Source: Flavicella marina (GTDB lineage Bacteria; Bacteroidota; Bacteroidia; Flavobacteriales; Flavobacteriaceae). From it: a stretch of DNA of 64,000 nucleotides. The DNA is taken from NCBI RefSeq assembly GCF_009193215.1, contig NZ_VYVA01000003.1, forward strand, positions 62,001 through 126,000. The letters run 5' to 3'. Numbering within the stretch: the stretch's first letter is position 1; each line of letters opens with the position of its first letter. Under the pieces are notes generated by a model. It ran no database searches, had not been told where the DNA came from, and saw only the letters and a list, made by a program, of their open reading frames with translations. Both the position numbers and the translations under genes were made by a program. Of this stretch, positions 30,042 to 57,996 are shown one piece after another.

Positions 30042-30134
30042 TTGACGATTAGTATACCTATTCAGATGTTTAGCGTACCTCGTTGCTGTCTTTGTAGTGT
30101 ACTTTAGTAAACTAAACCAAATCAATATTTTGAC
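30042..30134 (+). promoter_or_regulatory. Putative HTCS-responsive element upstream of susC (site 1)
   Basis: Block 1 (30042-30081) starts TTGACGATT and contains TATACC, ATTCAGAT and ACCTC. Block 2 (30099-30134) contains TTTAGT, ACCAAAT and AATATTTT, just before the susC ATG. Both blocks recur ungapped upstream of the GH3 gene: 31/40 and 28/36 identical by eye, with an unconserved 17-base spacer of the same length. Confidence 0.7.
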
Positions 30135-30135
30135 A

Positions 30136-33100
30136 ATGAAAAATTTTACAAGTGTTTTTCTCGTGTTTTTTCTTTCAATTTCGATGTATGCTCAAGTGAA
30201 TGTGCATGGTGTTGTAAAAGACAATAACGGGGAACCTTTGCCAGGAGCAACTGTTTTAGAAAAAGGGGCGCCAAATGGAACTACTACCGATTTTGACGGA
30301 AATTTTGAAATAACCACTCGAAATGAAACTGCAAAATTATTAATCAGTTTTGTTGGGTTCGAAACAAAGGAAATTTCGGTAACTACAAAAGAAACTATCG
30401 AAATACAGTTAGCGTTGAGTTCAGAATCGTTAGAAGAGGTTGTGGTAATTGGGTATGGTACATCTACAAAATCTGATGTAACTGCTTCAATAACTACTGT
30501 AAAACCAATAACAGATGACAAAGCTGGAGTTGCAGCTGTAGAATCTTTACTTCGAGGAACTTCTGGAATGAATGTAGTATCGAATGGTGAACCAGGAGCT
30601 GCTGTTTCTATTAATATTAGAGGGGTTTCAAGTTTAACCGGTTCCAATCAACCTTTGTATGTGATTGATGGAATTGTAATGGATAGCTCACAAGAATTTT
30701 TAACAGATCCTACCAACTTTCAAGGTGCTAGTAAAAGTGGTATTGGAGGTGTTGCTCCAGAAGATATCGAGTCTATTCAAATTTTGAAAGATGCATCAGC
30801 TACTGCGATTTATGGTTCTTTAGGTGCGAATGGGGTAATATTAATTTCTACCAAGCAAGGAAAACTTGGAGCACCAAAATTCAATTTTTCTACGAGTACT
30901 ACAGTAGGACAACCAATTCTACCGTATAAAATTTTAGATACAGAGCAGTTTGTAGCACATGCAAATGATAAATATCGTTTGAACCCAGATTCAAACGCTG
31001 GGCCTGAGTACCAATATCCAGATGGAAGATTCCCTTTTGAGATTAGAGAAGATGGATTGTACAATTTTATCGCGAATAGAGATGACGATAATGATGGAGA
31101 GTTAGATTTGATTGGTATTTATGAACCAATGGATTGGACGAGTTTGTACAGAACAACGTATTCTACGAATACTAGATTTACAGCATCTGGAGGTACTGAG
31201 AATACGAAGTACTATAGTTCTGTGGGATACTTGTCTCAAGAAGGAGTGTTGGCAAATGCATATTTGAATAAATTAGATTTGAATATCAATGGAACACATA
31301 GAATAAACAAAAACCTGAAATTAGGGGCGAAAGTAGCCTACAGTCACACGGTCAATTCACTGCCTGGAGGAAGTGGGTCGAACGCTGGTGAAATAAATTC
31401 AGTTTACCGTCATATCAATGATAATTTTCCACTAGAATTAAGAGAAGACTTAGCACCATTGGGTGATGAAAGATTTCGATTGACTCCTAGAGGTTGGGTC
31501 GAAGACTATGACAATATCTCAACAGAAAACCGTGTAATTGGAAATTTTTCAGTTGACTATAAGTTGAGAAACGACTTGGTGTACAATTTTAAGTTTGGTG
31601 GAGATTATAGAGATGCTGTTGGACATATTTGGCAAGGAATTTCAACAAATGCAGGGAATAATAGAGACGGTAGATATGCAATTTCTAAGTTGAATAGATT
31701 TTCATACAATATTGATCAAACCTTGACTTATAGACCTAAGGCCATTGGAAATCACCGCTATTCGATTTTAGGAGGTATTGTTTACAATCATACCAATTCA
31801 GAAAAAAATTATACACGAGCATCTAATTATTCCCCAGAAGGGCAAGCGAATAGAGGGAGAGATTTTTTTGGAGCTTCAATTATTGAAGATACAGTATACA
31901 ATTTTGGACCCGAAAGAATGTTGTCTTTTTTAGGAAGAGCAACGTATGGATATAAAAACAGGTATAAACTTTCTGCATCACTTAGATACGATGGTTCTAG
32001 TAAATTTATAGGAAAGAATAGATACGGTTTATTCCCTGCAATTAGTGCGGCTTGGGAAATCCATAAAGAATCGTTTATCAGTAACTCAGATACACCAATT
32101 AATGAGTTGAAGTTGAGAGTAGGTTATGGTGAAACCGGAAATCAAAGAGTAGGAAATAATTTGACTTTTGTAAACTATAGAATCTCTCCTGAAGGTTATG
32201 CTGCTGCTAATAAAGATTTAGAATTAGCGTACGAAAAAACAAATATTGCAAGTAAAGACCTTACTTGGGAAACGCAAAAACAATTCAACACAGGTTTAGA
32301 TTTAGGAATGTTTAATGGACGATTGAATGTTACAGTAGATGCATATGATAAAACTTCGGATGACTTGTTAAATACCTTAAGTATCGGTGGAAGTGCTGGT
32401 GATGATGCCATCGTAATTAACCAAGGAGGATTGAACAATAGAGGGGTTGAAGTTGCTATTAACGGAGACGTACTTAGAACAGAAGATTTTACATGGAATC
32501 TTTTTGGTACATATTCTATCAACAAAATTGAAATTCAAAACTTAGGTTTAGAGAAAGCTCATTTTGGTTCTGCAGGTGAATTTGTTGGGTACTATGGAAG
32601 ACCAATCCAAGTGTCGAACACCAATACAGTACCAATGAACCTTTATTTAGAAGGTGAGGCTCCAGGTTTGTTATTTGGATTTGAAACAGACGGTGTAGTA
32701 ACTGCTGATGATATCGCTGCAGGAACTCCTACCATCTTTGGTAATCCTGCGGAAGAGGGATTCTATAAGATAGCCGATAAAAATGGCGATGGTAATATTA
32801 CCAACGAAGATAAAGTGATTATAGGTGATCCGAATCCAGATTTTATTTATTCTTTCGGAACTAATATTAATTTTAAAAGATGGTCATTGAGTGCGAATTT
32901 CTACGGAGTAGTAGGGAATGATATTTACAATGCCAATTATCTGACTGAAAATTACAGTGCAGAAAATAGGTGGAACAATACACGTCTGGACTATGAACTA
33001 AATCGATATAGTAGTTCTAATACTTCAGGAACGTTGCCAGATGTTAATTTGCAAAAAGCAACATTGGATCAGGCGGGTGTATTAGATGTCGCTGTTTCCG

Positions 33101-33339
33101 ATGGTAGTTATTTACGATTGCAAAATTTGAATGTAGGGTATACTTTCCCAATGAATAGAAGTGGAATTACGAGTATCAAAGTTTTTGGATCTATGAGTAA
33201 TGTGTTTACCATTACCAATTACAATGGTGTAGAACCAGAAATTTCATCGTTACGATTTACTCCAGGAGTAGCAGGGGTTGATATCGCAACACCTCCAAAT
33301 CAAAGATCAGTAACAATTGGTGGAGCATTAACATTTTAA
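30136..33339 (+). CDS. SusC-like TonB-dependent outer-membrane glycan transporter
   Basis: The ATG at 30136 gives a 1067-residue protein with signal peptide MKNFTSVFLVFF...MYAQ. Residues about 22-105 are the carboxypeptidase-regulatory-like domain (GVVKDNNGEPLPGATV), followed by LEEVVVIGYGT and the plug (about 115-225, with VIDGI and ASATAIYGSLGANGVI). A 22-strand barrel then ends in a terminal Phe (GGALTF). It imports oligosaccharides with the SusD partner encoded 12 bp downstream. DKNGDGNITNEDK is the usual calcium-loop insertion of this family. Confidence 0.96.
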   Translation: MKNFTSVFLVFFLSISMYAQVNVHGVVKDNNGEPLPGATVLEKGAPNGTTTDFDGNFEITTRNETAKLLISFVGFETKEISVTTKETIEIQLALSSESLEEVVVIGYGTSTKSDVTASITTVKPITDDKAGVAAVESLLRGTSGMNVVSNGEPGAAVSINIRGVSSLTGSNQPLYVIDGIVMDSSQEFLTDPTNFQGASKSGIGGVAPEDIESIQILKDASATAIYGSLGANGVILISTKQGKLGAPKFNFSTSTTVGQPILPYKILDTEQFVAHANDKYRLNPDSNAGPEYQYPDGRFPFEIREDGLYNFIANRDDDNDGELDLIGIYEPMDWTSLYRTTYSTNTRFTASGGTENTKYYSSVGYLSQEGVLANAYLNKLDLNINGTHRINKNLKLGAKVAYSHTVNSLPGGSGSNAGEINSVYRHINDNFPLELREDLAPLGDERFRLTPRGWVEDYDNISTENRVIGNFSVDYKLRNDLVYNFKFGGDYRDAVGHIWQGISTNAGNNRDGRYAISKLNRFSYNIDQTLTYRPKAIGNHRYSILGGIVYNHTNSEKNYTRASNYSPEGQANRGRDFFGASIIEDTVYNFGPERMLSFLGRATYGYKNRYKLSASLRYDGSSKFIGKNRYGLFPAISAAWEIHKESFISNSDTPINELKLRVGYGETGNQRVGNNLTFVNYRISPEGYAAANKDLELAYEKTNIASKDLTWETQKQFNTGLDLGMFNGRLNVTVDAYDKTSDDLLNTLSIGGSAGDDAIVINQGGLNNRGVEVAINGDVLRTEDFTWNLFGTYSINKIEIQNLGLEKAHFGSAGEFVGYYGRPIQVSNTNTVPMNLYLEGEAPGLLFGFETDGVVTADDIAAGTPTIFGNPAEEGFYKIADKNGDGNITNEDKVIIGDPNPDFIYSFGTNINFKRWSLSANFYGVVGNDIYNANYLTENYSAENRWNNTRLDYELNRYSSSNTSGTLPDVNLQKATLDQAGVLDVAVSDGSYLRLQNLNVGYTFPMNRSGITSIKVFGSMSNVFTITNYNGVEPEISSLRFTPGVAGVDIATPPNQRSVTIGGALTF

Positions 33340-33351
33340 AAATTGAAAATT

Positions 33352-34983
33352 ATGAAGTATTTATATATAATAGTATTCGTATGTACACAGTTTCTAGTTT
33401 CATGTGATGAAATTTTAGATGTAAGTGACGATCTAGCTGAATTGGGAGCTTTAAACAAAGAGTTGTTGTATTCTTCAGAAGAAAATATTGAATCTGTAGT
33501 AAACGGAGTATATGCAAAATATGCCTCTGAATTTTACAACGGTGGAAATTTCTATCAAATGACAAGCGCGCACACACCTTATTTTTCAAGTTCGGGTGCA
33601 AAAGGTTTGGAATATGGAAAATTTGATATTTCCTCTTCATCAAAATCTTTAAATGATACTTGGGTAGAAATTTATAGTTGTGTCGATCATACAAATCACT
33701 TGATTGAAAATTTAAATCTGTTGGCACCGAATTTTTCTACAACACCTAGAAATTTAGGGCAAGCATATTTTATTAGAGCAATTACCTATTTCGACTTGGT
33801 TAGAGTATGGGGAGAGGTTCCTTTAAGAACGGTTCCAGCGGAGCAAGCTACTTTGTTTTTACCAAAATCATCAAAACAAGAGATTTACGACCAAATCATA
33901 GCAGATTTAACAAAGGCAACAGAATTGTTACCTGAACAAGAATATATTGTAGGTAGGCCACTTTCGTATGCGGCTTATGGTTATTTAGCAAAAGTATATA
34001 TGCAAATGGCAACTGAAACGACGTTGTCAGGAACTGCTGAGCAATATTGGGATTTGGCATATCAAAACGCAAAAGAAGTATTTGATAATGGGCCTTATAG
34101 TCTTGTTCCTTCTTATGAAGATTTGTTTGCCGAAGGAAACGAAAACACATCGGAAAGTATTTTTGAAATTCAATATACTGCTACGGGAACTTCAACAAAA
34201 AGTGGACAACATTCTACAACTACAGCTCCTGCAAAGTCAATTTATAACAGAAGAGCAAATGGAGGTAATTTAAGAGTGAATAGGTTGGCATTGCACGATC
34301 ATTATTTAGATTATAATATTGGTATCACAGATACACATCCCGATCCAAGAAGAACAGTTTCTTACGTTTCTGAAGAATATACTGAGATCATTGCTCCTTT
34401 CAAAAAAAGAAAAATTTATCCAGTTCAATTTTCGGGAGGTTTTGCTGTGAACTGGTTGAAAAAATACCAAGAGGTAGAAAATACGAATATCAATTCGAGT
34501 AGAAATCGAATGATCTTTAGGTATGCAGATTTATTATTGATGTTGGCAGAAATTGAAAACGAACGTGGAAATTACCAACCTGCAAAAGATTATGTAAAAC
34601 TTGTGTTAGACAGAGCAAATACAACTTTGTATGATTTGTCTGGTATTCAAAGTTTGGTAGGTGGTGATGATTTACGTCAAAGAATTTTAGTGGAAAGAGT
34701 ATATGAGCTATTGGGAGAAGGACACGAATGGTTCGATATGAGAAGGCAAACTGTAGGAGGTGTTTCTTTACTTGAAAATAGAATTTTAAGAAGACAAGCT
34801 TTGATGACAGGTGACGATTTGTTCGATACTAAAAACAAAACAAATTTTCACGAAACATGGAATCCTGATTTGTCACACGTGACTGGAGATAACCTGATTA
34901 AAAATATGAGGTTTCCGATTCCAGATAATGAGATTGTCGGAAACAATGCACTTACCAATAGTGATCAAAACGAAGGGTATTAA
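33352..34983 (+). CDS. SusD-like surface glycan-binding lipoprotein
   Basis: The start is the ATG at 33352; an in-frame TTG at 33343 is not needed. The 543-residue lipoprotein (VCTQFLVSCDE) has the SusD TPR-rich helical fold: RAITYFDLVRVWGEVPL, AYGYLAKVYMQMA, FRYADLLLMLAEIENERG, and the C-terminal RILVERVYELLGEGHEWFDMRR motif. It caps the SusC transporter and delivers glycan. Promoter element site 2 lies in the 211-bp gap after it. Confidence 0.96.
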   Translation: MKYLYIIVFVCTQFLVSCDEILDVSDDLAELGALNKELLYSSEENIESVVNGVYAKYASEFYNGGNFYQMTSAHTPYFSSSGAKGLEYGKFDISSSSKSLNDTWVEIYSCVDHTNHLIENLNLLAPNFSTTPRNLGQAYFIRAITYFDLVRVWGEVPLRTVPAEQATLFLPKSSKQEIYDQIIADLTKATELLPEQEYIVGRPLSYAAYGYLAKVYMQMATETTLSGTAEQYWDLAYQNAKEVFDNGPYSLVPSYEDLFAEGNENTSESIFEIQYTATGTSTKSGQHSTTTAPAKSIYNRRANGGNLRVNRLALHDHYLDYNIGITDTHPDPRRTVSYVSEEYTEIIAPFKKRKIYPVQFSGGFAVNWLKKYQEVENTNINSSRNRMIFRYADLLLMLAEIENERGNYQPAKDYVKLVLDRANTTLYDLSGIQSLVGGDDLRQRILVERVYELLGEGHEWFDMRRQTVGGVSLLENRILRRQALMTGDDLFDTKNKTNFHETWNPDLSHVTGDNLIKNMRFPIPDNEIVGNNALTNSDQNEGY

Positions 34984-35026
34984 TAATTGACCGATATAGG
35001 GTTAGATACTGTCATTACTCATAAAG

Positions 35027-35119
35027 TTGACGATTTCTATACCAATTCAGATACTCTGTGCACCTCAAAACAAGTACAAGAAAGTAATTTAGTGGTCTAG
35101 ACCAAATAAATATTTTAAT
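35027..35119 (+). promoter_or_regulatory. Putative HTCS-responsive element upstream of the GH3-sulfatase operon (site 2)
   Basis: Block 1 (35027-35066) and block 2 (35084-35119) align without gaps to the two blocks upstream of susC; the 17-base spacer is not conserved (2/17). The element ends 75 bases before the GH3 ATG, whereas at susC it ends next to the ATG, so this operon has a longer leader. Confidence 0.7.
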
Positions 35120-35194
35120 CGAGTAGTATTTATCGAATATTTAGAAGTCTGAAAAAATAGAGAGAAGATTTTATCACAGAAAAAACACGAAAGA

Positions 35195-37549
35195 ATGAAA
35201 ATTATAGGAAAAACTATTCAGATTATGTTACTGATGGCTGTAGTCGTTTTTACGTCTTGCAATACAGAAAACAAGAAAGCAAATTTAGACTATACATCTA
35301 CAGAATTAAGTGCTGAAGAAAGAGTGAAGGATTTGATGTCGAGAATGACATTGGAAGAAAAAGTAGCTCAAATGTGTCAGTATGTAGGTTTAGAGCATAT
35401 CAAAGCTGCACAGCATGATTTGTCTGAAGAAGATTTAGATGTAAATGACGCTAGAGGTTTTTACCCTGATTTAAGTATCAATGATTTGGTTGAAATGACC
35501 AAAGCAGGTAAAATCGGATCGTATTTACATATTGTAACTGTAGAAGAGGCAAACTATTTGCAATCTTTGGCAATGCAATCTAAATTTAAAATTCCATTGT
35601 TGATTGGTATTGATGCTATTCATGGAGACGGTTTGTTCTCTGGAGCAACAATATATCCTTCTCCAATAACACAAGCTGCTACTTGGGATGACGAATTGTT
35701 GTACAAAGTTAGTGCTCAAACAGCAAAAGAAATGAGAGCCACAGGTACTCACTGGGCTTTTACACCAAATATTGATGTGTTGAGAGATCCAAGATGGGGT
35801 CGAACAGGTGAGACTTTTGGAGAAGATCCGTACTTAGTTGGAAATATGGGAGTAGCTACAATTAAAGGATTGCAATCAGATAATTTTTCTGGATCTGAAA
35901 ATGTAATTGCATGTGCAAAACATTTAGTTGCAGGTAGTCAGTCTTTAAATGGATTGAATGCCTCGCCTACAGATGTGTCTTATAGAACTTTGATGGGAAT
36001 CTTTTTACCTCCTTTTAAAAGAGCGGTACAAGAGGCAAATTTATTTTCTATCATGACAGCACATAACGAGGTTAATGGTATCCCGGCTCATATGGATAAG
36101 CATATGATGACAGATTTAATGCGTGATCGTTGGGGGTTTGATGGTTTTTATGTGAGTGATTGGAATGATGTTTCGAGAATTCATACTTGGCATCATGTTG
36201 CTGATAGCTTCAAGCAAGCAACAGAATTTTCTGTTGGAGCTGGTTTAGATATGCATATGCACGGACCTCATTTTGCTGAATATGTAATTGAATTGGTAAA
36301 TGAAGGGAAGCTACCTGAATCAAGAGTAGATCTAGCATGTTCAAAAATTTTAGAAGTAAAATTTAGATTAGGGTTGTTTGAAAATCCATTTATCGAAGAA
36401 GGATCGTATAAAGAAGTATTGTTCAATAAAGAGCATCAAGAATCTTCTTTAGAACAAGCAAGAAAAGGTATTGTGTTGCAAAAAAATTCTGGGATATTGC
36501 CTTTGAAATCTTCAACTAAAAAAACAATTTTTGTAACAGGGCCAAATGCCAACAATCAAACTACATTAGGAGATTGGGTTTCTCCTCAACCAGAGGAAAA
36601 CATCATTACGATGTATGAAGGAATCAAAAAGTTAGGAGAAGAGAAAGGTTATAAAGTAAGTTATTTTGACTCAGGGGATAGATCTCGAAAAATGAAAGAT
36701 GCTGATATCAATAAAGCAGCTGCCTTGGCAAAAAAAGCAGATATCACGGTGTTGGTTTTGGGTGAAAATTCATTCCGTCATGATTGGCCGAATAAAACAA
36801 CTGGAGAAAATATTGATAGAGCGACCTTAAAACTATCTGGAAGACAAATGGAGCTTGCAAATAAAGTTTTGGCAAATGGGAAACCCGTAATCGTTGTTTA
36901 TGTGAGTGGAAGTCCGATTGCAGAGCCTACACTTGAAAAAAGAGCAAAAGCTGTTATCAATACTTGGGAGCCAGGTGCATTTGGTGGTCAAGCCACTGCA
37001 GAAATTATATTTGGAGAAGTGAACCCAAGTGCTAAGTTGCCATTGACAATTCCTAGATCTGTAGGACAGTTGCAAATGGTATACAACCATAAGCCTACGA
37101 TGTATATCCATAAATACAATACAGAGAAAAAGACACCTTTACACCCATTTGGTTTTGGATTGAGTTATACCCAATTTGATATTTCTACACCGGTGGTGTC
37201 GTCTAACGTAGTGAGTAAAGATGCTCCAATCGAAGTTTCTGTTGAGGTGAAAAATACAGGTAAAATGGCTGGTGAAGAAGTGGTGCAATTGTACATTAGA
37301 GATAATGTAAGTTCAGTAACTCGACCAGTGAAAGAATTGAAAAAATATCAAAGAGTAGCTTTGGAACCAGGTGAATCAAAAACAGTAACCATGACCTTAG
37401 ATGCTGAGAGTTTGGCGTTTTATGATATCAATATGGAATACTGCGTAGAACCTGGAAGTTTTAAGGTGATGGTTGGAAATTCATCTGCTGATAAAGATCT
37501 AAAAGAAACTTCAATTGAAGTGAAAGAAAGAATTATTTTAAAAGATTAA
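35195..37549 (+). CDS. GH3 beta-glycosidase lipoprotein (beta-glucosidase/beta-xylosidase type)
   Basis: This 784-residue lipoprotein (VVVFTSCNTE) is a three-domain GH3 enzyme: TIM barrel with GRTGETFGEDPYLVG and nucleophile Asp322 (GFYVSDWNDV), alpha/beta sandwich (about 430-640, GPNANNQTTLGDW) and a C-terminal FnIII-like domain (VKNTGKMAGEEVVQLYI). It cleaves non-reducing-end beta-glucosyl or beta-xylosyl units of imported oligosaccharides. It heads a tight operon with sulfatases and GH10 enzymes, which favours beta-xylosidase or a related exo-activity, though sequence alone does not decide. Confidence 0.92.
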   Translation: MKIIGKTIQIMLLMAVVVFTSCNTENKKANLDYTSTELSAEERVKDLMSRMTLEEKVAQMCQYVGLEHIKAAQHDLSEEDLDVNDARGFYPDLSINDLVEMTKAGKIGSYLHIVTVEEANYLQSLAMQSKFKIPLLIGIDAIHGDGLFSGATIYPSPITQAATWDDELLYKVSAQTAKEMRATGTHWAFTPNIDVLRDPRWGRTGETFGEDPYLVGNMGVATIKGLQSDNFSGSENVIACAKHLVAGSQSLNGLNASPTDVSYRTLMGIFLPPFKRAVQEANLFSIMTAHNEVNGIPAHMDKHMMTDLMRDRWGFDGFYVSDWNDVSRIHTWHHVADSFKQATEFSVGAGLDMHMHGPHFAEYVIELVNEGKLPESRVDLACSKILEVKFRLGLFENPFIEEGSYKEVLFNKEHQESSLEQARKGIVLQKNSGILPLKSSTKKTIFVTGPNANNQTTLGDWVSPQPEENIITMYEGIKKLGEEKGYKVSYFDSGDRSRKMKDADINKAAALAKKADITVLVLGENSFRHDWPNKTTGENIDRATLKLSGRQMELANKVLANGKPVIVVYVSGSPIAEPTLEKRAKAVINTWEPGAFGGQATAEIIFGEVNPSAKLPLTIPRSVGQLQMVYNHKPTMYIHKYNTEKKTPLHPFGFGLSYTQFDISTPVVSSNVVSKDAPIEVSVEVKNTGKMAGEEVVQLYIRDNVSSVTRPVKELKKYQRVALEPGESKTVTMTLDAESLAFYDINMEYCVEPGSFKVMVGNSSADKDLKETSIEVKERIILKD

Positions 37550-37551
37550 TT

Positions 37552-39177
37552 ATGAAAAATCTTAAGAGAATTGTATCGTCAAGTTTGTTTGTCGTAGCTA
37601 CTGCATTGCTATTCGTAGCATGTGGAACTTCGAAAACAGAGAAAAAAGAAAAGAAGCCGAATGTGATTTACATCATGGCCGATGATTTAACAACACAGGC
37701 AATTAGTGCATATAGTGGAATTTACAAAGATATTGCGCCTACCCCAAATATTGATAGAATCGCTACTCAAGGTATGCTGTTTCAAGATGTATTGTGTACC
37801 AATGCGATTTGTGGACCTAGTAGATCGGCTATTTTAACTGGAGATTACAGCAATGTAAACGGTTATTATAAAAATGAAAGTGGAGGCCGTTTCGATGCTA
37901 ACAAATGGACTTTTCCACAAGAGTTTCAGACGAATGGTTACAATACTAGTTTATTCGGTAAATGGCACTTAGGTTCTGAGCCAAAAGGTTTTAATTCATA
38001 TAAATACCATGCTGCTGCTGGGCAACAAGGACATTATTGGGATCCTGTTTATAATGAAAATGGGAAAGAAGTGAAAGAAAAAGGGTATGCGACTAACATC
38101 AGTACAGAATTCGCATTGGAGTGGTTAGAAGAAAATAAAACTTCAGAGAAACCTTTTATGATGCTTTTACAATACAAGGCACCGCACAGGCCTTGGGAAC
38201 CAGATCATAAATACGAAACTTTATGGGACGATATTGATATGCCTTACCCCGTAACCTACAACGATACCTATGAAGGAAGAGAATTAACAGCTGGTGATTC
38301 TGAAATGACAATGGAGTATTTCAGTAGAAGAGATATGAAGTTAAAAAGACCGGAAGGCTTGAAAGGTAAAGAAAAGGTGAAATGGGATTTTTATGGGGCA
38401 AAACCTGGAGAAATTGTAACACCCGAAGGAATGTCTTTTGAAGAAGGTAGAAATTGGAGATATCAAACGTATATCAAAGACTATTTAGCTTGTGTAAAGT
38501 CAGTTGATGATAATATTGGTAGAGTTTTAGATTATTTGAAAGCGAATAACTTAGAAGAAAATACCATTATCGTATTGACTTCGGATCAAGGGTTTTATTT
38601 AGGTGACCACGGTTTCTTCGACAAACGTTTCATTTATGAAGAATCATTAAGAATGCCATTCATGGTACGATACCCGAAAAAGGTAAAAGCAGGTAGTGTG
38701 AATGAAGATATTATTACGAATGTTGATTTTGCTCCAACACTATTGGAGTTAGCAGGAATTAAAAACGAGCAAAAAATGCATGGGAAAAGTTTTGCGACTG
38801 CGTTAGAAGGGAAAACTCCCAAAGATTGGAAAGATGCGATGTATTACCACTACTATGAGTTCCCGTTTTGGCACCATGTACAACCACATTATGGTATTAG
38901 AACACAGAAATATACTTTGGCGCATTTTTACTATAGCATAGATGTGTGGGAACTGTATGATTTAGAAAAAGATCCGAACCAGATGAACAATATCATCAAC
39001 GATCCAGCATATCAAGATGTGATAGTTTCTTTAAAAGAAAAATTAAAATCGTTAATGGCAGAAGTTGACAATGACAAAACTTTGCCTGAATTTAGAAAAA
39101 TAACAGACACTGATTTCGGAAGTATCATTGATCATAATGGTGAAGAATCAGTACAAGATTTATTAACTAAAAAATAA
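37552..39177 (+). CDS. S1-type sulfatase lipoprotein, FGly motif CGPSR
   Basis: This 541-residue lipoprotein (LLFVACGTS) is an alkaline-phosphatase-superfamily sulfatase. Metal/active-site motifs are IMADDLTT, CGPSR with formylglycine precursor Cys87, GKWHLG, KAPHRPWEP and TSDQGFYLGDHG. It hydrolyses a sulfate ester on an algal oligosaccharide. It is second in the operon, 2 bp after GH3. No maturase (anSME) gene is in the window, so Cys conversion depends on a gene elsewhere. The DDLT start and long insert near residues 225-300 separate it from the other sulfatases here. Confidence 0.94.
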   Translation: MKNLKRIVSSSLFVVATALLFVACGTSKTEKKEKKPNVIYIMADDLTTQAISAYSGIYKDIAPTPNIDRIATQGMLFQDVLCTNAICGPSRSAILTGDYSNVNGYYKNESGGRFDANKWTFPQEFQTNGYNTSLFGKWHLGSEPKGFNSYKYHAAAGQQGHYWDPVYNENGKEVKEKGYATNISTEFALEWLEENKTSEKPFMMLLQYKAPHRPWEPDHKYETLWDDIDMPYPVTYNDTYEGRELTAGDSEMTMEYFSRRDMKLKRPEGLKGKEKVKWDFYGAKPGEIVTPEGMSFEEGRNWRYQTYIKDYLACVKSVDDNIGRVLDYLKANNLEENTIIVLTSDQGFYLGDHGFFDKRFIYEESLRMPFMVRYPKKVKAGSVNEDIITNVDFAPTLLELAGIKNEQKMHGKSFATALEGKTPKDWKDAMYYHYYEFPFWHHVQPHYGIRTQKYTLAHFYYSIDVWELYDLEKDPNQMNNIINDPAYQDVIVSLKEKLKSLMAEVDNDKTLPEFRKITDTDFGSIIDHNGEESVQDLLTKK

Positions 39178-39181
39178 AAAA

Positions 39182-42201: not shown

Positions 42202-42204
42202 GTA

Positions 42205-44225: not shown

Positions 44226-44244
44226 ACCTTTTTTGATATTTATG

Positions 44245-44267
44245 AATACCTATTTATTATAGGTATT
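44245..44267. repeat. Perfect inverted repeat between GH10 and sulfatase genes
   Basis: AATACCTAT (44245-44253) and ATAGGTATT (44259-44267) are perfect 9-base arms around TTATT. No T-run follows, so it is not a typical terminator. It lies in the only gap above 20 bp (73 bp) in the GH3-to-TIM-barrel operon. Its TACCTATT resembles part of the HTCS-type element, and TTGAT lies just upstream with one extra base of spacing, so it may be a diverged internal regulatory site. Confidence 0.55.
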
Positions 44268-44298
44268 GTTAACTTGTCATCAATAAAAACCAAATTAG

Positions 44299-47477: not shown

Positions 47478-49120
47478 TGAAAAAATTGATTTTAATAATA
47501 GTTGCGTGTATTAGTATCGCATCACATGCTCAGGTACAACAACCAAATATCCTATGGATTGTATGTGAAGATATCAGTCCAACGCTATCTATGTACGGCG
47601 ATGCTGCGGCCAAAACGCCTCATTTAGATGCTTTTGCTAAAGAAGCCATGGTTTTTGATAATGCTTTTGCAACAGTTGGAGTTTGTGCTCCTTCTCGCTC
47701 ATCCATTATCACAGGTATGTATGCCACGAGTATTGGAACCATGCATATGAGAACTGGGATGGATATTCAATCTTGGGGGAAAAGAACCTATAAAACAGGG
47801 ATACCAATTACAGATATTAACGGTGATTCTATCATTCAGTATGCTGCAGTAGTTCCGGCTGAGGTTAAATGTTTTCCAGAGTATTTGAGAGCAGCGGGTT
47901 ATTTTTGTACGAATAATCAGAAAACTGATTATCAATTTGCAGCTCCGGTAACTGCTTGGGATCAAAATAATAATAAAGCACATTGGAGAAATGCTCCAAA
48001 AGGCAAACCATTTTTCTCGGTTTTCAATATAGATCTCACCCATGAGAGTAAGTTGTGGAAACACGATAAGTTACCTTTAACCGTAGATCCAGCACAGGTA
48101 AAAGTTCCGCCTTATCTTCAGGATACCGAAACTTCTAGAAAAACCATTGCTAGAAATTATAGTAATATTGAGTTAATGGATAAAAAGTTCGGTGCTATCG
48201 TTGCGGAGCTTAAAAAAGATGGACTGTATGACAATACCATTATTTTCTTTTATAGTGATCATGGAGGACCCTTACCTCGACAAAAAAGAGAAATTTTAGA
48301 TTCTGGTTTGAAAGTTCCTTTTATGGTCAAAAGCCTCAATTCAGAAATAAGTGGTAGAACAGATCAAATGATTTCTTTCGTGGATTTAGCCCCAACTATT
48401 TTGAGTTTGGCGCATCTAAAAAGCCCTAAATACATGGATGGTCAAGCCTTTTTAGGAGCATATAATGCTAAAGAGAGAGTGTATGTTTACGGAAGTTCAG
48501 ATAGATTTGACGAGTTTACAGATAGGATTCGTTCTGTTAGAGATAAGCAGTATTTGTATTTGAAAAACTATTATCCTGACTTGAAAAAGTACAAGGATGT
48601 TGGCTATCGAAAACAAGTACCGTTGATGGTTGATTTGCTGTCACTAGCTTCTAAAGATGAGTTGAATAATTTACAGATGATTTGGTTTGGTGATAAAACA
48701 ACCGAAGAGCTTTATGATTGTAAAGAAGATCCCTTTAACTTAAATAATCTAGCGGAAGATCCTGCTTATACGACTCAATTAAAAAGGATGCGCAAAGCAC
48801 TGAAAGCTCAAAAAAACAAAGATTATGCAGATATTTCAGAGTCAGAAATGATTGCAGAAATGTGGCCTGGCAATAAGCAACCTCAGACCAGTGCTGTCAC
48901 CGTGAAGCAGAAAAAGAAAACGATACAACTTTGCACAGAGACCAAAGGAGCATCGATTGTTTATTATATAGCCAAAAAGAATAATTTAAAATTAGATTTT
49001 AATAGTGGGTGGCAATTATATTCGAAACCTTTAACATTAGAAAAGGGTGTTTATCTATATACAATGGCAGAAAGAATAGGGTTTAAGGAAAGTGAAATTT
49101 TAATAACTAAAATCAATTAA
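47477..49120 (+). CDS. S1-type sulfatase, heparan N-sulfatase-like, FGly motif CAPSR
   Basis: This 547-residue sulfatase has a signal peptide (CISIASHAQ). Motifs are VCEDISPTLSMYG, CAPSR with Cys70, GTMHMRT and YSDHGGPLPRQKRE, which match the N-sulfoglucosamine sulfohydrolase-like (S1_8-type) group; those often act on polymeric or oligomeric uronic or xylose-containing glycans. A C-terminal extension (about 455-547, SAVTVKQKKKTIQLCTET...) looks like a chitobiase/beta-hexosaminidase-type C-terminal beta domain. It is translationally coupled to the GH10 gene through TAATG. Confidence 0.93.
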   Translation: MKKLILIIVACISIASHAQVQQPNILWIVCEDISPTLSMYGDAAAKTPHLDAFAKEAMVFDNAFATVGVCAPSRSSIITGMYATSIGTMHMRTGMDIQSWGKRTYKTGIPITDINGDSIIQYAAVVPAEVKCFPEYLRAAGYFCTNNQKTDYQFAAPVTAWDQNNNKAHWRNAPKGKPFFSVFNIDLTHESKLWKHDKLPLTVDPAQVKVPPYLQDTETSRKTIARNYSNIELMDKKFGAIVAELKKDGLYDNTIIFFYSDHGGPLPRQKREILDSGLKVPFMVKSLNSEISGRTDQMISFVDLAPTILSLAHLKSPKYMDGQAFLGAYNAKERVYVYGSSDRFDEFTDRIRSVRDKQYLYLKNYYPDLKKYKDVGYRKQVPLMVDLLSLASKDELNNLQMIWFGDKTTEELYDCKEDPFNLNNLAEDPAYTTQLKRMRKALKAQKNKDYADISESEMIAEMWPGNKQPQTSAVTVKQKKKTIQLCTETKGASIVYYIAKKNNLKLDFNSGWQLYSKPLTLEKGVYLYTMAERIGFKESEILITKIN

Positions 49121-49122
49121 TC

Positions 49123-50724
49123 ATGAGGTTTATCAGAATTGTAATTATTGTATCGTTAGTTTTTATGTCTTTTCAGTTTGTTCAAGGTCAAGATAAAAAG
49201 CCAAATATATTGATGATTTGCGTAGATGATCTTAGGAATAATATTGGCGTCTATGGAGATGAACAAGCAATAACTCCGAATATTGATCGGTTAGCCAAAC
49301 GAGGGGTGGTTTTTAGAAATCATCAAGTTCAATATGCCGTATGTGGTCCTTCAAGAGCAGCGTTAACAACAAGTTTAATGCCTGAAGAAACTGGAGTGAT
49401 TGGTTTTAAACCAATCCGAACTAAATTAAACAATGTGATTTTTTTACCTCAATATTTTAAAGAGAACGGATATATTACTGCGGCAGCCGGAAAAATTCAT
49501 GATCCGAGAACAGTAGGTGTTAAAGGACAAAAATCAAAAGATGGCGATGATATTGCTTCCTGGTCTATCCCGTATTATGCCCCTAAAAACGGACATCATC
49601 CAAAAAACGTGGCCATAGATGCAGCGGATTTACCTGATGAGAAGTATACCGATGCGATGATTCGGATTGAAGGATTGAAATTGTTAGAAAAAGTTGCCAA
49701 AAAAGACGATCCATTCTTTTTAGCAATCGGATTTAAAAAACCACATGAACCCTTTATTGCTCCAAAAAAATATTGGGATTTGTATGACAACACAAAATTC
49801 AAAATAGCAGTCAATCAAGCGGCTCCAATTGGAAGAGAAGATTTAAAAAAATATGCGCCTCATGGTAAAGATGTCCAAAACAATATGGATAAGAAAACCG
49901 GTTTGGTCAATGAAAAATTTCAGTTAGAGTTGAAAAAAGGCTACTATGCCTGCACTTCGTTTGTAGATGCTCAAATTGGATTGGTGTTAGATGAGCTGGA
50001 AAAATTAGGGCTTTCAGAGAATACCATCATCGTGCTTTGGGGGGATCATGGTTTGTTTTTAGGAGAACATGGTCGTTGGAATAAACACTCAAATTTAGAG
50101 GTGGCTTCATCATCTCCATTGATTATTGTAGATCCTAGAAATTCTGAAGCTAGAGGGGAGACTTTTTCTGCAGTTTCAACCGTTGATTTGTATCCTACTT
50201 TATGCGAGTTATCTGGGTTGAAAACTCCGGAACAGCCTAAAAATAATTCCAAATCAACAGGAAGAGCTTTAAAGGGTAGAAGTTTAGTGCCGATTTTGAA
50301 TGATAGAAATGCACAAGTAAAAATAGGTGCAGTTACCGTGTATAGAGGACAACGTGGAATAGGATACGGGTACCGAGTAAAGGGAAAATATCGTTATATC
50401 GAATGGGTGAAAAAAGGAAAAGAAAATTTCTATGAATTGTATGATTATCAACTGGACCCTAATGAAACGATGAATTTAGCCGTGGTTTCTAAAGATACCT
50501 ACGAACCGTTGCTTCATAAATTTTCAAGAGATATTAGAGCGCATCGAGAAGGCGCTGGTTGTATGGCTTTATTGAAAACGGCACCGTATAAGATTTCTGC
50601 CAAAAACGAAAAAAATATTTTAGTTAGAGATGCTGATAATGATGGAACTCCAGATGATGAGGAAGAAACCATAGACAGCAACAACAACGGAATTATGGAT
50701 TATTTAGATAGTGCTGTGCATTAA
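49123..50724 (+). CDS. S1-type sulfatase, iduronate-2-sulfatase-like, with Asp-rich calcium-type tail, FGly motif CGPSR
   Basis: This 533-residue exported protein has VDDLRNNIGVYG, CGPSR with Cys74, AAAGKIHDP, and WGDHGLFLGEHGRWNKHSNLE. After the sulfatase domain the last 30 residues form DADNDGTPDDEEE and DSNNNGIMDYLD, two thrombospondin type-3/EF-loop-like calcium motifs, which ordinary S1 sulfatases do not carry. The tail could bind calcium or serve as a spacer for export. The gene is 2 bp after the previous sulfatase and 14 bp before the next gene. Confidence 0.93.
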   Translation: MRFIRIVIIVSLVFMSFQFVQGQDKKPNILMICVDDLRNNIGVYGDEQAITPNIDRLAKRGVVFRNHQVQYAVCGPSRAALTTSLMPEETGVIGFKPIRTKLNNVIFLPQYFKENGYITAAAGKIHDPRTVGVKGQKSKDGDDIASWSIPYYAPKNGHHPKNVAIDAADLPDEKYTDAMIRIEGLKLLEKVAKKDDPFFLAIGFKKPHEPFIAPKKYWDLYDNTKFKIAVNQAAPIGREDLKKYAPHGKDVQNNMDKKTGLVNEKFQLELKKGYYACTSFVDAQIGLVLDELEKLGLSENTIIVLWGDHGLFLGEHGRWNKHSNLEVASSSPLIIVDPRNSEARGETFSAVSTVDLYPTLCELSGLKTPEQPKNNSKSTGRALKGRSLVPILNDRNAQVKIGAVTVYRGQRGIGYGYRVKGKYRYIEWVKKGKENFYELYDYQLDPNETMNLAVVSKDTYEPLLHKFSRDIRAHREGAGCMALLKTAPYKISAKNEKNILVRDADNDGTPDDEEETIDSNNNGIMDYLDSAVH

Positions 50725-50738
50725 TTAAACTGACTTTA

Positions 50739-51590
50739 ATGAAAAAAATGTTTTTTTTAGGGCTGCTGATTTTTACTGCCTGTAATACTCCTGTTTCTGA
50801 AAACACCTTTTCCAAAGAAAATTTAATTCCATGGTCGATTGTTGGTTTTGATGTAAACGAACGGACTCCTGAAGAGCGAATTGAAATGATTCAGAATTTA
50901 GGATATAAACAATACGGCTACGGTCATAGAGTTAGACATATACCAACCATGGCGGAAGAATGGAAACTTGCTCAAGAAAAAGGAGTTGAAATCCATAATG
51001 TTTGGTTGTATATAAATTTATCAAAAGATATTCCAGATGCGCTAAGAGCACAGAGCGAAGCAGTATTTGAAAATTTAGAAAAAACAGGTTTGCACACTCA
51101 GGTTTGGGTGGGTATGGATCCAAATTTTTTCACGAATGTCTCGGATAAAGTTGCATTTGAAAAAGCGAAAGCTATGATCGTTTATCTTTCTAAAAGAGCT
51201 AAATCTTTAGGGTGTAAAATAGCATTATACAATCATGGTGGATGGTATGGGAATCCTAAAAATCAGCTTGAAATTATTTCTCAATTTCCAAAAGGTGAAA
51301 TAGGAATTATTTATAATTTCCATCATGCTCACGAAGATTTAGAAAATTTCAAAGAAAACATTCAGTTGATGTTTCCTTATTTGTGGTGTGTGAATTTGAA
51401 TGGAATGAAAAAAGAAGGACCTAAAATAATTACAATTGGTGAAGGGGATTTAGAAAAAAACATGATACAAGAATTGATAGATCTTGGCTATAAAGGGCCT
51501 TGGGGTATTTTAGGGCATGTAAAAGGTGGGGACCCAGAAATTATTTTGGAAAAAAATTATAAAGGTCTTCAAAAAATGTTTTTGAATTAA
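50739..51590 (+). CDS. Xylose-isomerase-like TIM-barrel lipoprotein
   Basis: This 283-residue protein has a clear lipobox (IFTACNTP), so it is exported. The rest is a sugar-phosphate isomerase/epimerase-type (AP_endonuc_2-like) barrel: EERIEMIQNLGYKQYGYG, IHNVWLYINL, IALYNHGGWYGNP, IIYNFHHAHED, IGEGDLE and GPWGILGHV. Metal ligands (His, Glu) appear kept. Cytoplasmic relatives isomerise keto/aldo sugars; lipid-anchored copies occur in Bacteroidota PULs with no defined reaction. It is the last gene of the operon and its stop overlaps the convergent outer-membrane gene by 4 bp. Confidence 0.83.
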   Translation: MKKMFFLGLLIFTACNTPVSENTFSKENLIPWSIVGFDVNERTPEERIEMIQNLGYKQYGYGHRVRHIPTMAEEWKLAQEKGVEIHNVWLYINLSKDIPDALRAQSEAVFENLEKTGLHTQVWVGMDPNFFTNVSDKVAFEKAKAMIVYLSKRAKSLGCKIALYNHGGWYGNPKNQLEIISQFPKGEIGIIYNFHHAHEDLENFKENIQLMFPYLWCVNLNGMKKEGPKIITIGEGDLEKNMIQELIDLGYKGPWGILGHVKGGDPEIILEKNYKGLQKMFLN

Positions 51591-53567: not shown

Positions 53568-53603
53568 ATAAATAATAGCGTGAGAAGCAGTAAAAAACCC
53601 TAA
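53568..53603 (-). promoter_or_regulatory. Shared upstream motif, copy at the amidinotransferase gene
   Basis: The minus strand reads TTAGGGTTTTTTAC, ten variable bases, then GCTATTATTTAT, 31 bases before the ATG. It matches the copy at 52395-52430 with identical spacing. Two conserved half-sites at this distance look like an alternative-sigma promoter or a regulator box. Confidence 0.55.
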
Positions 53604-53677
53604 AAATATTTGTGTTTTTTTTAGTTTTCATCCGTAATACCTCTGTTTTTGTGTTTGTTAGATGTTTTCTGAACTTA

Positions 53678-53698
53678 TTTTGACAAATATGAAACCTT
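53678..53698 (+). repeat. 21-base repeat shared with 57911-57931
   Basis: ttttgacaaatat, then g, then aaacctt: 20 of 21 bases match the sequence at 57911-57931. Both lie upstream of exported carbohydrate-active genes (53745 and 58012). It contains TTGAC-N9-ACCT, the first half of the HTCS-type element, but the second block is not at the standard spacing here. Confidence 0.5.
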
Positions 53699-53744
53699 GA
53701 TTTTAAGCATGTTTTGCAACTTTGTATCAACCAAACCAACCAAT

Positions 53745-54689
53745 ATGTTTTTTAGTTTTTGCAGCCATAAAAAAAGAATTATCCTACCTCTATATATATG
53801 TGTTTGCTCATTATTAGGTTGTTCTAATGTTAGTGCACTAGAAGAAACATATCCTACCCCAAAAAAACATATTGGTTTTAATATGCGTTGGGGAGATACT
53901 CCCGTAATCACAGAAAAGTTGGTGTCAACTATCTCTAAAATGGAGCCCACTATGTTGCGATATCCTGGGGGAACTATGGCGCATAATTTTAATTGGGAAA
54001 CCGGATTGCCAAGTGAGCCTACCGTTAAAGATATTGAACATAAAATTGAAGATGTGAAGTTGTTGGCAGATGGTACGAATACCCAAATTATTTTTGTGGT
54101 TGATATTGTAAAAAGTACCATGGAAAATCAATTGAAAATGTTGGAAGCTGCTAAGGTTCCTGTCAGGTTTGTGGAGATTGGAAATGAATTGTATTTCGAT
54201 CATTATGAGGATGTTTTTCCTAGTGGAAAAGCTTATGCTGATACGATTAATAAGTGGGTACCGCGAATCAGAAAAAAGTTTCCCTTAGCAAAGTTTGGAG
54301 TTTCTATGATAGGAAGGCAGGCAGGGAATGAAAGAAAACAAAATTGGAATCAAGATGTGTATTCCAATATCAAAGTAGCTATTGATGCACTTGTTTATCA
54401 TTTGTATGTGCATGCAGATGAAACTGTACAGCATAGAATAGACCGATTTTTACCCCATTATATAAAGGATGAGAATAAAGAATTGTGGGTGACCGAATAT
54501 GGAGCTCAAAGTCACTCGATTGAACAAACTGAGGAATTAGCGGATTATGTGGAGTCTATTGCAACTATTTCATTAAGTCATGTTTTGATTTCACGTTCCG
54601 GGAGGTACAGCAAAATCGATGATGAATCTGAATTGACAGAAGAAGGAGCCTTTTTTGTGAAAAGGCGAAATAAAAACAACCAATATTAA
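53745..54689 (+). CDS. Clan GH-A glycosidase-like lipoprotein
   Basis: The ATG at 53745 is chosen because it directly precedes a lipoprotein signal (VCSLLGCSN); an in-frame ATG at 53709 is possible. The 314-residue protein is a TIM barrel with MLRYPGGTMAHNFNWE, acid/base Glu148 in EIGNELYF and nucleophile Glu251 in WVTEYGAQ, as in GH39/GH51 and beta-agarase-like families. It lacks the C-terminal beta-sandwich those families usually carry, ending soon after LTEEGAFF, so it is a minimal barrel or a shortened enzyme. Exact family not determined. Confidence 0.78.
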   Translation: MFFSFCSHKKRIILPLYICVCSLLGCSNVSALEETYPTPKKHIGFNMRWGDTPVITEKLVSTISKMEPTMLRYPGGTMAHNFNWETGLPSEPTVKDIEHKIEDVKLLADGTNTQIIFVVDIVKSTMENQLKMLEAAKVPVRFVEIGNELYFDHYEDVFPSGKAYADTINKWVPRIRKKFPLAKFGVSMIGRQAGNERKQNWNQDVYSNIKVAIDALVYHLYVHADETVQHRIDRFLPHYIKDENKELWVTEYGAQSHSIEQTEELADYVESIATISLSHVLISRSGRYSKIDDESELTEEGAFFVKRRNKNNQY

Positions 54690-54707
54690 TTTTAAACCAT
54701 AATCATT

Positions 54708-55073: not shown

Positions 55074-55094
55074 ATGCCCCTAGTAGATTTTATG

Positions 55095-55134
55095 AAAAGC
55101 GTTTCGCAAACTATTGCAAAACGCTTTTTTTTTT
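55095..55134 (+). terminator. Terminator after the small helical protein gene
   Basis: AAAAGCGTTTCGCAA and TTGCAAAACGCTTTT pair with one mismatch around ACTA, followed by a run of ten or more T. Strong intrinsic terminator. Confidence 0.88.
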
Positions 55135-55192
55135 GAAATTAATTTTTTAACTTAAGTGTCGGTATAGTAGAATGTTAATTGAATAATGGCTT

Positions 55193-56464: not shown

Positions 56465-56479
56465 AAAAAACATACAAAT

Positions 56480-56518
56480 AATACCCGCTTTTTACCTATG
56501 TAGAAAGCGGGTATTTTA
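56480..56518 (+). terminator. Terminator after the first T9SS binding protein
   Basis: Perfect 12-base arms AATACCCGCTTT and AAAGCGGGTATT around a 12-base loop, then TT; 15 bp after the stop. Confidence 0.78.
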
Positions 56519-56522
56519 CGTT

Positions 56523-56606
56523 TTGACAATTTTTAGACTTTATTAGATGCTCTCTAAACCTTCTTAACAGACCTGTATCCTAATTTTGTAATAGATAACA
56601 AAATAA
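56523..56606 (+). promoter_or_regulatory. Putative HTCS-responsive element (site 3)
   Basis: Block 1 (56523-56562) keeps TTGAC, AGATGCTCTCT and AACCT at the same offsets as sites 1 and 2: 24/40 identical to site 1 and 27/40 to site 2. Block 2 (56580-56606) matches 17 of the first 27 bases at the same spacing. It precedes the second T9SS binding protein gene. Confidence 0.6.
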
Positions 56607-56628
56607 CTAACCATTAATACATATCATT

Positions 56629-57858
56629 ATGAAAAAAATTACTTTAATATTTACGTTAATATCAGCTTTGGGTTTTGCCCAAGTTACGAACGGAACATTT
56701 GATTCTGATATTTCAGGATGGACTACACAAGGTAGCCCAACATCACTAGTACATGAATCAGCTGAAGGAGACGGTCTTCCATTAGGAGCAATGAAGCTTA
56801 TAGCTTCAGGAACTTCGTCTGGAGCAAAAACATCGCCAAATACTGCTCCAGGAAATACAGGAGTTTATATATTGAAATTTAGAGTAAAAGGTGAAATAGG
56901 TACAAAAATTCAAGGAGCTGTCTATCAAGGTTCGTTGATCTCTGGAGAAAATTATACTTTGGAAACAGCCGATTGGGAAGACTATTCATATACATTTCAT
57001 AATATAGATGGTGCAACCAATCTTAATGTAAGAATTATTGGTAAAACAGATACAAAAACATTTTACATAGATAATGTAACCTTTGAAGAAGCAACTCTTT
57101 ATGATAACTATGTTTTAAATGGTGATTTTGAAACAGGTGGAGGTAGCACAACAAACTGGACACACACGAATGACTCTCAATCTTCTATGGGTACAATAAC
57201 TGGTACTGATGGAGCAGGTGCTGATACAGGAACTGCAGCTGCCCTTACTTTTAGTGCAGACCAAACAGGTACTTCTGACGCAACATATTTTGACAATGAT
57301 ATTTATGATCTTGGAGAAGATAGAACTACAGAGTTGTTTACAATTACATTTGATGCCAAAACAACAGGTGCAGGTGCTGAATACCAGGCCGTATTCAAAT
57401 TATACGATGCTGCAGATGGAGTTATTGGTTCGTTGTCTACTGGTATTACAACTATTGCTGCAGATGGAGCGTGGCATCCGATTGAGTTTAATAAAGCGAA
57501 TAATTTAGGGGCGTTTAGAAAGATTCAAGTGAGAATAAAAATTAGAGATGGAGCAAACAGTTCAGAGGTAGTGGCAATTGATAATGTGGTTTCTAGTTTT
57601 GTAGATCCTGTAGCTGGTATTTTTAACAAACCGAAACAAGATTTACAAGTAAGTGTATATCCAAACCCAGTTAATGATGTATTGCGTATTTCAAAAGATG
57701 TTGCTACCGTTGAGGTGTTTAATATATTAGGGCAAAGAATTATTTCTGTGTCAAATGTAAATTCGATTGATACTTCATCTTTAGAGAATGGATCTTACAT
57801 CGTTAAGTTGACTTCTGATGAAGGATTGACAGCTTCAAAAAGGATATTTAAGAAGTAA
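56629..57858 (+). CDS. T9SS-secreted protein with tandem CBM4/9-like domains
   Basis: This 409-residue protein has signal peptide MKKITLIFTLISALGFAQ. Two beta-sandwich domains begin with the typical NGTFDSDISGWT (about 20-155) and NGDFETGGGSTTNWT (about 162-320) and end in FYIDNVTF and VAIDNVV. The C-terminal type A sorting domain (VYPNPVNDVLRI, VEVFNILGQRI, ENGSYIVKL) closely resembles that of the preceding gene. The role is probably adhesion to, or capture of, the target glycan outside the cell. Regulatory site 3 places it in the HTCS regulon. Confidence 0.82.
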   Translation: MKKITLIFTLISALGFAQVTNGTFDSDISGWTTQGSPTSLVHESAEGDGLPLGAMKLIASGTSSGAKTSPNTAPGNTGVYILKFRVKGEIGTKIQGAVYQGSLISGENYTLETADWEDYSYTFHNIDGATNLNVRIIGKTDTKTFYIDNVTFEEATLYDNYVLNGDFETGGGSTTNWTHTNDSQSSMGTITGTDGAGADTGTAAALTFSADQTGTSDATYFDNDIYDLGEDRTTELFTITFDAKTTGAGAEYQAVFKLYDAADGVIGSLSTGITTIAADGAWHPIEFNKANNLGAFRKIQVRIKIRDGANSSEVVAIDNVVSSFVDPVAGIFNKPKQDLQVSVYPNPVNDVLRISKDVATVEVFNILGQRIISVSNVNSIDTSSLENGSYIVKLTSDEGLTASKRIFKK

Positions 57859-57877
57859 GCACATAAAAAATAGTTGA

Positions 57878-57909
57878 AAAAACACTGTCATTATTGACGG
57901 TGTTTTTTT
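57878..57909 (+). terminator. Terminator after the second T9SS binding protein
   Basis: AAAAACACTGTCA and TGACGGTGTTTTT pair with one T-G wobble around TTAT, with a seven-T run; about 20 bp after the stop. Confidence 0.8.
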
Positions 57910-57910
57910 G

Positions 57911-57996
57911 TTTTGACAAATATCAAACCTTATATGACAATCGTTAGACTAGCAAGGTTTAAGTTGTTGGTAAATTTGAATACAACATAAACCAAT
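57911..57996 (+). promoter_or_regulatory. Putative HTCS-responsive element, diverged (site 4)
   Basis: TTGAC (57913) -N9-ACCT starts block 1, and GTAAATTTG at 57970 stands where block 2 begins in sites 1-3, at the same 57-base offset. Overall identity of block 1 to site 1 is only about 19/40, so this is tentative. Positions 57911-57931 are 20/21 identical to 53678-53698. It precedes the esterase and G8-protein genes. Confidence 0.4.

Follow-up and report, generated by a model that had tools for sequence, protein, structure and literature searches.

A short element recurs upstream of glycan-utilization genes in a 64,000-nucleotide stretch of the Flavicella marina genome (contig NZ_VYVA01000003.1, positions 62,001 to 126,000), which we call the window and number from its first base. 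From sequence comparisons, we consider it highly likely that this element is the operator of a hybrid two-component system regulator (HTCS) whose gene starts at 26120, and that the operator is joined to a sigma-A promoter with fixed geometry. The HTCS gene adjoins a susC/susD pair and genes for glycan enzymes, within a polysaccharide utilization locus (PUL). An earlier note on this DNA had proposed that the element is a regulator site plus a promoter. This is supported by its presence beside the HTCS gene in each of the 15 relatives examined, by its constant distance from a -7 box, and by the confinement of its best matches to the PUL. The element thus very probably indicates which genes, near and far, the HTCS switches on. 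HTCSs form one of the major classes of PUL regulator, and the earlier operator prediction described in PMC3878776 concerned gut Bacteroides. An operator at a fixed distance from the -7 box would offer a direct test of the regulator and a template for other HTCS regulons.

A direct repeat at a fixed distance from a -7 box

The earlier note placed copies at 30042, 35027, 56523, and 57913. All four are present at exactly these coordinates, and the count of four fell short, as a strong copy at 44212 had been missed (Table 1). The copies at 30042 and 35027 are identical at 31 of 40 bases in block 1 and 28 of 36 in block 2, as reported, and are separated by spacers of the same length (17 bases) that share 2 of 17 bases. 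Over 93 bases, these two copies have 61 identities. Across the window, the background for such comparisons has a mean of about 25.5–26 (standard deviation of about 4.2), and no unrelated place in it scores above 46. The copy at 56523 has 51 of 93 identities to 35027, which is clearly above that value, and 47 of 93 to 30042, which is barely above it. Pairwise identity was rejected as the sole criterion for 57913: it did not separate this copy from background, and a matrix built from other species (below) did. A BLASTN search of 35020–35125 against the genome returned only itself, plus short matches of 14–20 bases.

All four of these copies contain a direct repeat: a GA-N10-ACY box is followed, about 21 bp on, by a second one in the same orientation, with GA at element positions 2–3 and 23–24 and ACY at 14 and then at either 35 or 36. 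In register, the half-sites agree at only 7–11 of 17 bases over six window sites. The feature that stays constant downstream is the -7 box, which starts 58 bases after the TTGAC in 30042, 35027, 56523, and 57913. In the F. psychrophilum (Flavobacterium psychrophilum) sigma-A promoter, this box is TAnnTTTG at -12 to -5 (PMC9723704). The two conserved blocks of the earlier note therefore stand in part. Block 1 corresponds to the putative operator, and block 2 combines the -7 box with a stretch common mainly to 30042 and 35027, so that only the box is general. Likewise, the 17-base spacer is equal in length as claimed, and what matters instead is that the second ACY and the -7 box are 20 bases apart. 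An exact TAnnTTWG box was found at 6 of 8 sites in this genome and in 11 of 15 relatives, always 20 bases after the second ACY; its start is at 58 in the six own sites, and in 9 of the 11 relatives it is at 59. When the 15 relatives are aligned, most read TTTGACAATnAnnnAACCTTTTGTGATGnTTTTTnnAACC, followed by a free spacer and then TAnTTTAGC.

Bacteroidetes sigma-A promoters also include a TTG element at -33. Only 2 of the 8 own sites and 3 of the 15 relatives have a TTG at element positions 33–52, and the place of a possible -33 box is taken by the operator's ACC. The strict architecture GA-N10-ACY-N6-GA-N10/11-ACY-N20-TAnnTTWG occurs at exactly four places in the window, all on the plus strand (30042, 35027, 56523, and 57913) with none on the minus strand, and at none in 64 less related loci (L025–L088; 1.21 Mb). 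The expectation for the window is 0.0008, which is only descriptive because the architecture was composed after the sites were known.

In the mechanism that we propose, the signal would be an oligosaccharide of a sulfated and probably xylan-like glycan, bound by the periplasmic propeller, and the fused kinase would phosphorylate the receiver and so free the AraC-type domains. Two subunits, as a phosphorylated AraC-type dimer, would then sit head to tail on the 21-bp direct repeat, with the first helix-turn-helix motif (HTH1) on the GA box (TGAC/AGAT) and the second (HTH2) on the ACC. With the -7 box at -12 to -5, the second ACC falls at -35 to -33, so the operator would span about -70 to -33 and its downstream ACC would lie where a -33 box would be expected. 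The activator would touch RNA polymerase at about -35 and compensate for the absent -33 contact, which would account for the rigid 20-base spacing between the downstream ACC and the -7 box. The GH10, GH3, esterase, and sulfatase genes suggest a sulfated xylan-like glycan as the substrate. As a model for the substrate, a beta-1,3-xylan system was considered and set aside, as the one described in PMC12125979 is a GH26/ABC system in Vibrio and does not match.

Many PULs are described as using extracytoplasmic function (ECF) sigma/anti-sigma pairs (PMC3878776), and the element could in principle be an ECF-sigma promoter rather than an activator's operator. We give this almost no chance. The -7 box has the sigma-A form TAnnTTTG (PMC9723704), and what lies upstream of it, a direct repeat of 21 bp covering about 38 bases, is unlike a sigma contact.

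Association of the element with the HTCS gene

In order, the Pfam domains of the HTCS are Reg_prop (the propeller sensor), Y_Y_Y, HisKA, HATPase_c, Response_reg, and HTH_18 (AraC-type), all in one polypeptide. A scan of genome contigs with this protein gave 80 loci that we kept. Loci L009–L020 and L024 are from flavobacterial relatives with HTCSs that are 47–51% identical to this one; L023 is partial (58%), and L021 and L022 are two contigs of a Flavicella metagenome-assembled genome (MAG; 67% and 85%). In 15 of these 16 loci, we examined what follows the HTCS gene; L021, which holds the N-terminal part of the HTCS, was left out. The element is present between the HTCS gene and susC in all 15, and the susC proteins are 35–79% identical to that of the window.

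A matrix built from the 15 relatives' elements, with no sequence from the window, was run over both strands of the window. The top scores were at 30042 (30.1 bits), 56523 (26.1), 44212 (25.9), 35027 (23.8), and 57913 (12.9), and the next was 9.5 bits. No score as high as any of the first four came up in 6.4 Mb of simulated sequence; for 57913, 0.04 chance matches are expected per window, or about 2 per genome. With the Flavicella locus left out, the same five sites remain on top and 57913 is just ahead of the next (11.8 versus 10.6 bits; 0.08 chance matches per window, about 4 per genome). None of 200 column-permuted matrices gave at least five matches at the 11.8-bit level, where the true matrix gives five. 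Recovery from other species gives 57913 real but moderate support, in keeping with the earlier description of this fourth copy as weaker.

To cover the whole genome (3,155,273 bases), we used R1, a 15-sequence model from relatives only. Its first four matches are 30042, 44212, 35027, and 56523 (E from 2e-6 to 1e-4), and it lists 29 matches up to E of 10. An even spread of the motif through the genome, which the earlier note had named as refuting its reading, was not found: the top four matches in 3.16 Mb are all within the PUL.

Across 397 genomes of the family, 15 have an ortholog of the HTCS (E ≤ 1e-200). At E ≤ 2e-6, a limit that was set afterwards as the best score in our own genome, R1 matches 14 of the 15 genomes with the ortholog and none of the 382 without it. 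Seven of these 14 supplied training loci; without them, the comparison is 7 of 8 versus 0 of 382 (Fisher p = 3e-14). Synteny in 15 of 15 relatives and this genome-by-genome co-occurrence both support the HTCS at 26120, the candidate named in the earlier note, as the probable binder.

These data also bear on the alternative that the element is just a generic strong flavobacterial promoter, with TTGAC as a -35-like box and no dedicated regulator. TTGAC and the -7 box do look promoter-like, and the sites at 56523, 57913, and C13:52150 (below) lie close behind terminator-like hairpins (identified by eye). The TTGAC is 58 bases from the -7 box, however, which is too far for a -35/-33 contact. Apart from the sites named here, most matches in the genome scans are weak or partial, and no family genome without the HTCS ortholog reaches the stricter E limit. 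We consider a generic promoter extremely improbable.

The sites could instead belong to another regulator, such as the cupin-AraC protein encoded at 20533 or any of six other HTCSs, since the genome encodes several AraC-type domains. This too is very unlikely, as synteny and co-occurrence are with the HTCS at 26120. In its DNA-binding domain (DBD), we located what we take, by analogy with the structure of AraC, to be the recognition helices of HTH1 and HTH2. The presumed HTH1 helix, MSRTSLYMKLKNL, is unchanged in 21 of 23 aligned DBDs (our own included; L233 has M changed to I), and the presumed HTH2 helix, SNPKYFSTSFKK, is unchanged in 22 of 23 (L236 has one S changed to A). The six HTCS paralogs in this genome have different recognition helices. 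Their loci (the matched part plus 1.5 kb on each side) had no match up to E of 1 to R2, a model that includes six window sites.

The remaining departure from these helices is in G383, which is also the exception to co-occurrence at the stricter limit. Its HTH1 stretch is YSRTSLYVKLKEL, and its HTH2 helix is unchanged. Between its HTCS gene and susC there is, by eye, a diverged element in register: the ACC boxes are kept, at 21 bases from ACC to ACC; the first box is largely lost; and TACATTTG is one base further. R2 aligns part of this element (15.8 bits). This single case, in which HTH1 has changed along with the loss of the first box and HTH2 is kept along with ACC, suggests that HTH2 contacts ACC and HTH1 contacts the GA box.

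Several results weigh against the operator reading or narrow it. Because the HTCS gene and the element adjoin each other in most genomes, joint inheritance accounts for part of the co-occurrence, and several of the sites share one genome and one history. At E ≤ 1e-3, R1 matches all 15 genomes with the ortholog and also 9 of the 382 without it (best 3.4e-5), and the match in G383 at this limit is at an unrelated place elsewhere in the genome. The nine matches without the ortholog, which we take as background, are all partial. Seven are inside open frames and two (G120 and G229) are not; one (L214) is in a frame that is 27% similar to the HTCS over 330 residues. A second match in G133 has the same letters as the match in G261 and likewise lies in a frame. 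The 397-genome scan was run with stricter filters, at the cost of weak matches, and the E-values of the models are rough. The -7 box is imperfect at 44212 and 53659 and in 4 of 15 relatives (L009, L011, L022, and L023). With the other-species matrix, the tentative site at 53659 reaches just 2.0 bits, and R1 does not list it. Within the cluster, no site was found before the Por-tail gene at 55193, either by eye or in the matrix and R1 scans.

Reach and history of the predicted regulon

Scores from R2 are circular for the six window sites, and only its untrained matches count. Among its 38 matches, these are C13:52150–52216 (E = 1.4e-4) and C7:228142–228207 (E = 0.076); each has an exact -7 box at offset 58. 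Outside the window and 36 kb upstream of the HTCS, the first precedes by 90 bases a gene for a sulfatase with a type IX secretion system (T9SS) tail (C13:52240). The second is about 85 bases before an unlinked gene for a lipoprotein-like protein of 324 amino acids, P0004 (L175:730–1704; the lipobox was identified by eye). Searches with P0004 found nothing in Pfam and, up to E of 0.1, no sequence relative in PDB; the protein is possibly a new glycan-binding or glycan-degrading protein. The element would tie these loner genes to the PUL.

It is possible that only 30042, 35027, and 44212 are functional, that 56523, 57913, and the two sites outside the window are look-alikes, and that the regulon ends at the core PUL. 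The copy at 57913 is at background in pairwise comparisons (39, 40, and 43 of 93 identities to the other three), about two matrix scores as high as its own are expected per genome, and R1 ranks it only sixth (E = 0.09), behind a partial match that falls within a PUL sulfatase gene. R1 also scores the outer sites poorly: C13:52150 has E of only 1.2, and C7:228142 is not listed. Yet 56523, which had been proposed as the third copy, is second in the window by the other-species matrix and fourth in the genome by R1, and the -7 box is at offset 58 in 56523, 57913, C13:52150, and C7:228142 alike. Furthermore, homologues of two of the downstream genes in other genomes also bear the site, namely a G071 gene whose product is 44% identical to P0004 over 254 residues and a G115 homologue (31% identity) of the protein encoded at 56629. 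We therefore think it unlikely that the regulon is limited to the core PUL. An extended regulon, which the earlier note took about 27 kb further to the G8 protein, is supported; the inclusion of the G8 protein depends on the weaker site at 57913 and on the G8/CEMIP-like gene forming one operon with the esterase gene before it, from which a short gap separates it.

Comparison with relatives suggests how the regulon may have changed. The susC gene is followed by susD, GH3, and the sulfatase at 37552 in 15 of 15 relatives. In 13 of these, the susD and GH3 matches are 6–128 bases apart, and R2 finds no element in that gap; in L023, a GH10-like gene lies between the two. A longer gap (210–220 bases) with an operator is found in the window and, among the 15 relatives, only in the Flavicella MAG (L022). 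The site at 35027 is thus best read as a copy gained in the Flavicella lineage. Perhaps its source was a duplicated susC promoter; the likeness of 30042 and 35027 beyond the -7 box would then be explained. In G132, the HTCS gene is on contig C7 (367163–371035) and the PUL is on C2, with two sites before sulfatases (C2:1414889 and C2:1431167). One of the G132 sulfatases is 59% identical to the sulfatase at 44299, and both have sites. Weaker copies lie before the C2 susC (9.9 bits) and after the HTCS gene, before a transporter-like gene (14.5 bits).

We tentatively suggest a broader picture, which is possible but less secure than the operator itself. In this clade of flavobacterial HTCSs, a rigid code of two helices and two boxes and a fixed distance from operator to -7 box may have been kept through many genera, with the regulon rewired promoter by promoter: in Flavicella, the susCD-GH3 unit would have been split by a second operator, and further copies would have joined far-off sulfatase and lipoprotein genes, with the HTCS gene ending up on a different contig from its PUL in one genome. 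If true, flavobacterial HTCS regulons, unlinked members included, could be read directly from sequence.

In Aestuariivivens insulae (L015), there is a site (L015:9808–9873) about 160 bases before the HTCS gene, with the strict architecture and an R2 E-value of 3.5e-4, which suggests autoregulation of the HTCS in this species. No comparable match was found before the HTCS gene of the window.

Known systems and features of the window

The best reading of the element is that it fits the HTCS direct-repeat class predicted in Bacteroides by Ravcheev et al. 2013, who describe 16 HTCS motifs in 11 genomes, with direct repeats and a mean of 21 bp between boxes (PMC3878776). As with the HTCS operators of Bacteroides thetaiotaomicron presented there, a 21-bp direct repeat lies upstream of susCD and of enzyme operons of the adjacent PUL, along with some distant members; the likeness is one of layout. 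What differs from those predictions is the flavobacterial HTCS, the fixed distance to the -7 box, and the co-occurrence over 397 genomes. Response-regulator fragments of the HTCSs BT4663 and BT4124 are reported to bind susC-type promoters in electrophoretic mobility shift assays (PMC11253607). The targets here, which are predicted from sequence alone, likewise include promoters of susCD homologues. The same source describes S/C-HIP as a conserved inhibitory contact in most HTCSs, and our HTCS receiver differs in having N at the S/C position (NHIP).

The carrageenan regulon of Zobellia galactanivorans, as described in PMC5698469, is another case in a marine flavobacterium with PUL-distal members, including a sulfatase; its PUL encodes an araC-family transcription factor rather than an HTCS, and its substrate is different. 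The -7 box is common with F. psychrophilum (PMC9723704), and here the -33 region is taken by the operator's ACC. Among the matches listed in the openly licensed literature, judged by titles and the starts of abstracts, we found no flavobacterial HTCS operator.

Table 1. Predicted regulatory sites, transcription units, and the HTCS gene in the window
Feature	Position	Strand	Details
HTCS, proposed binder	26120–29977	+	1285 aa; Pfam domains in order
Putative operator 1	30042–30079	+	upstream of susC-susD; GA-N10-ACC box twice, 21 bp apart
-7 box of susC promoter	30100–30107	+	TACTTTAG; 58 after TTGAC
Inferred transcription unit 1	30136–34983	+	susC, susD (Pfam, TIGR04056)
Putative operator 2	35027–35064	+	before GH3-sulfatase-sulfatase-sulfatase-SASA esterase-GH10
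-7 box	35085–35092	+	TAATTTAG
Inferred transcription unit 2	35195–44225	+	GH3, three sulfatases, SASA esterase, GH10
Putative added operator	44212–44250	+	26–27 bits with other-species matrices; overlaps end of first GH10 gene; 86 bases before sulfatase start; before sulfatase-GH10-sulfatase-sulfatase-TIM barrel
-7-like box	44270–44277	+	TAACTTGT; 19 bases past second ACC of 44212; fits TAnnTTGY better than TAnnTTTG
Inferred transcription unit 3	44299–51590	+	sulfatase, GH10, two sulfatases, xylose-isomerase-like TIM barrel
Tentative operator	53659–53696	+	architecture in register; before gene 53745–54689 (glycosyl hydrolase catalytic core)
-7-like box	53717–53724	+	CAACTTTG; one off TAnnTTTG
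Putative operator 3	56523–56560	+	before T9SS-tailed protein 56629–57858
-7 box	56581–56588	+	TAATTTTG
Putative operator 4 (weaker)	57913–57950	+	before BD-FAE-like esterase 58012–58845 and G8/CEMIP-like protein 58891–62835
-7 box	57971–57978	+	TAAATTTG

The box at 44270–44277 and another at L022:1872–1879 (TAAATTGC) fit TAnnTTGY, which is the SM5 class of F. psychrophilum (PMC9723704), and both are in the place of a sigma-A -7 box. Terminator-like hairpins were seen by eye close upstream of three putative operators (window 56484–56525 and 57880–57915; L173:9120–9155). The T-run of the hairpin runs almost directly into TTTTGAC at 57913 and in L173, and comes within about ten bases of it at 56523. 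The gene for the glycosyl hydrolase catalytic core starts at the ATG at 53745, not at the TTG given in the list of open reading frames. On the minus strand, an open reading frame of 288 amino acids (62869–63735) matches only the later part of a sulfatase profile (149–299 of 301).

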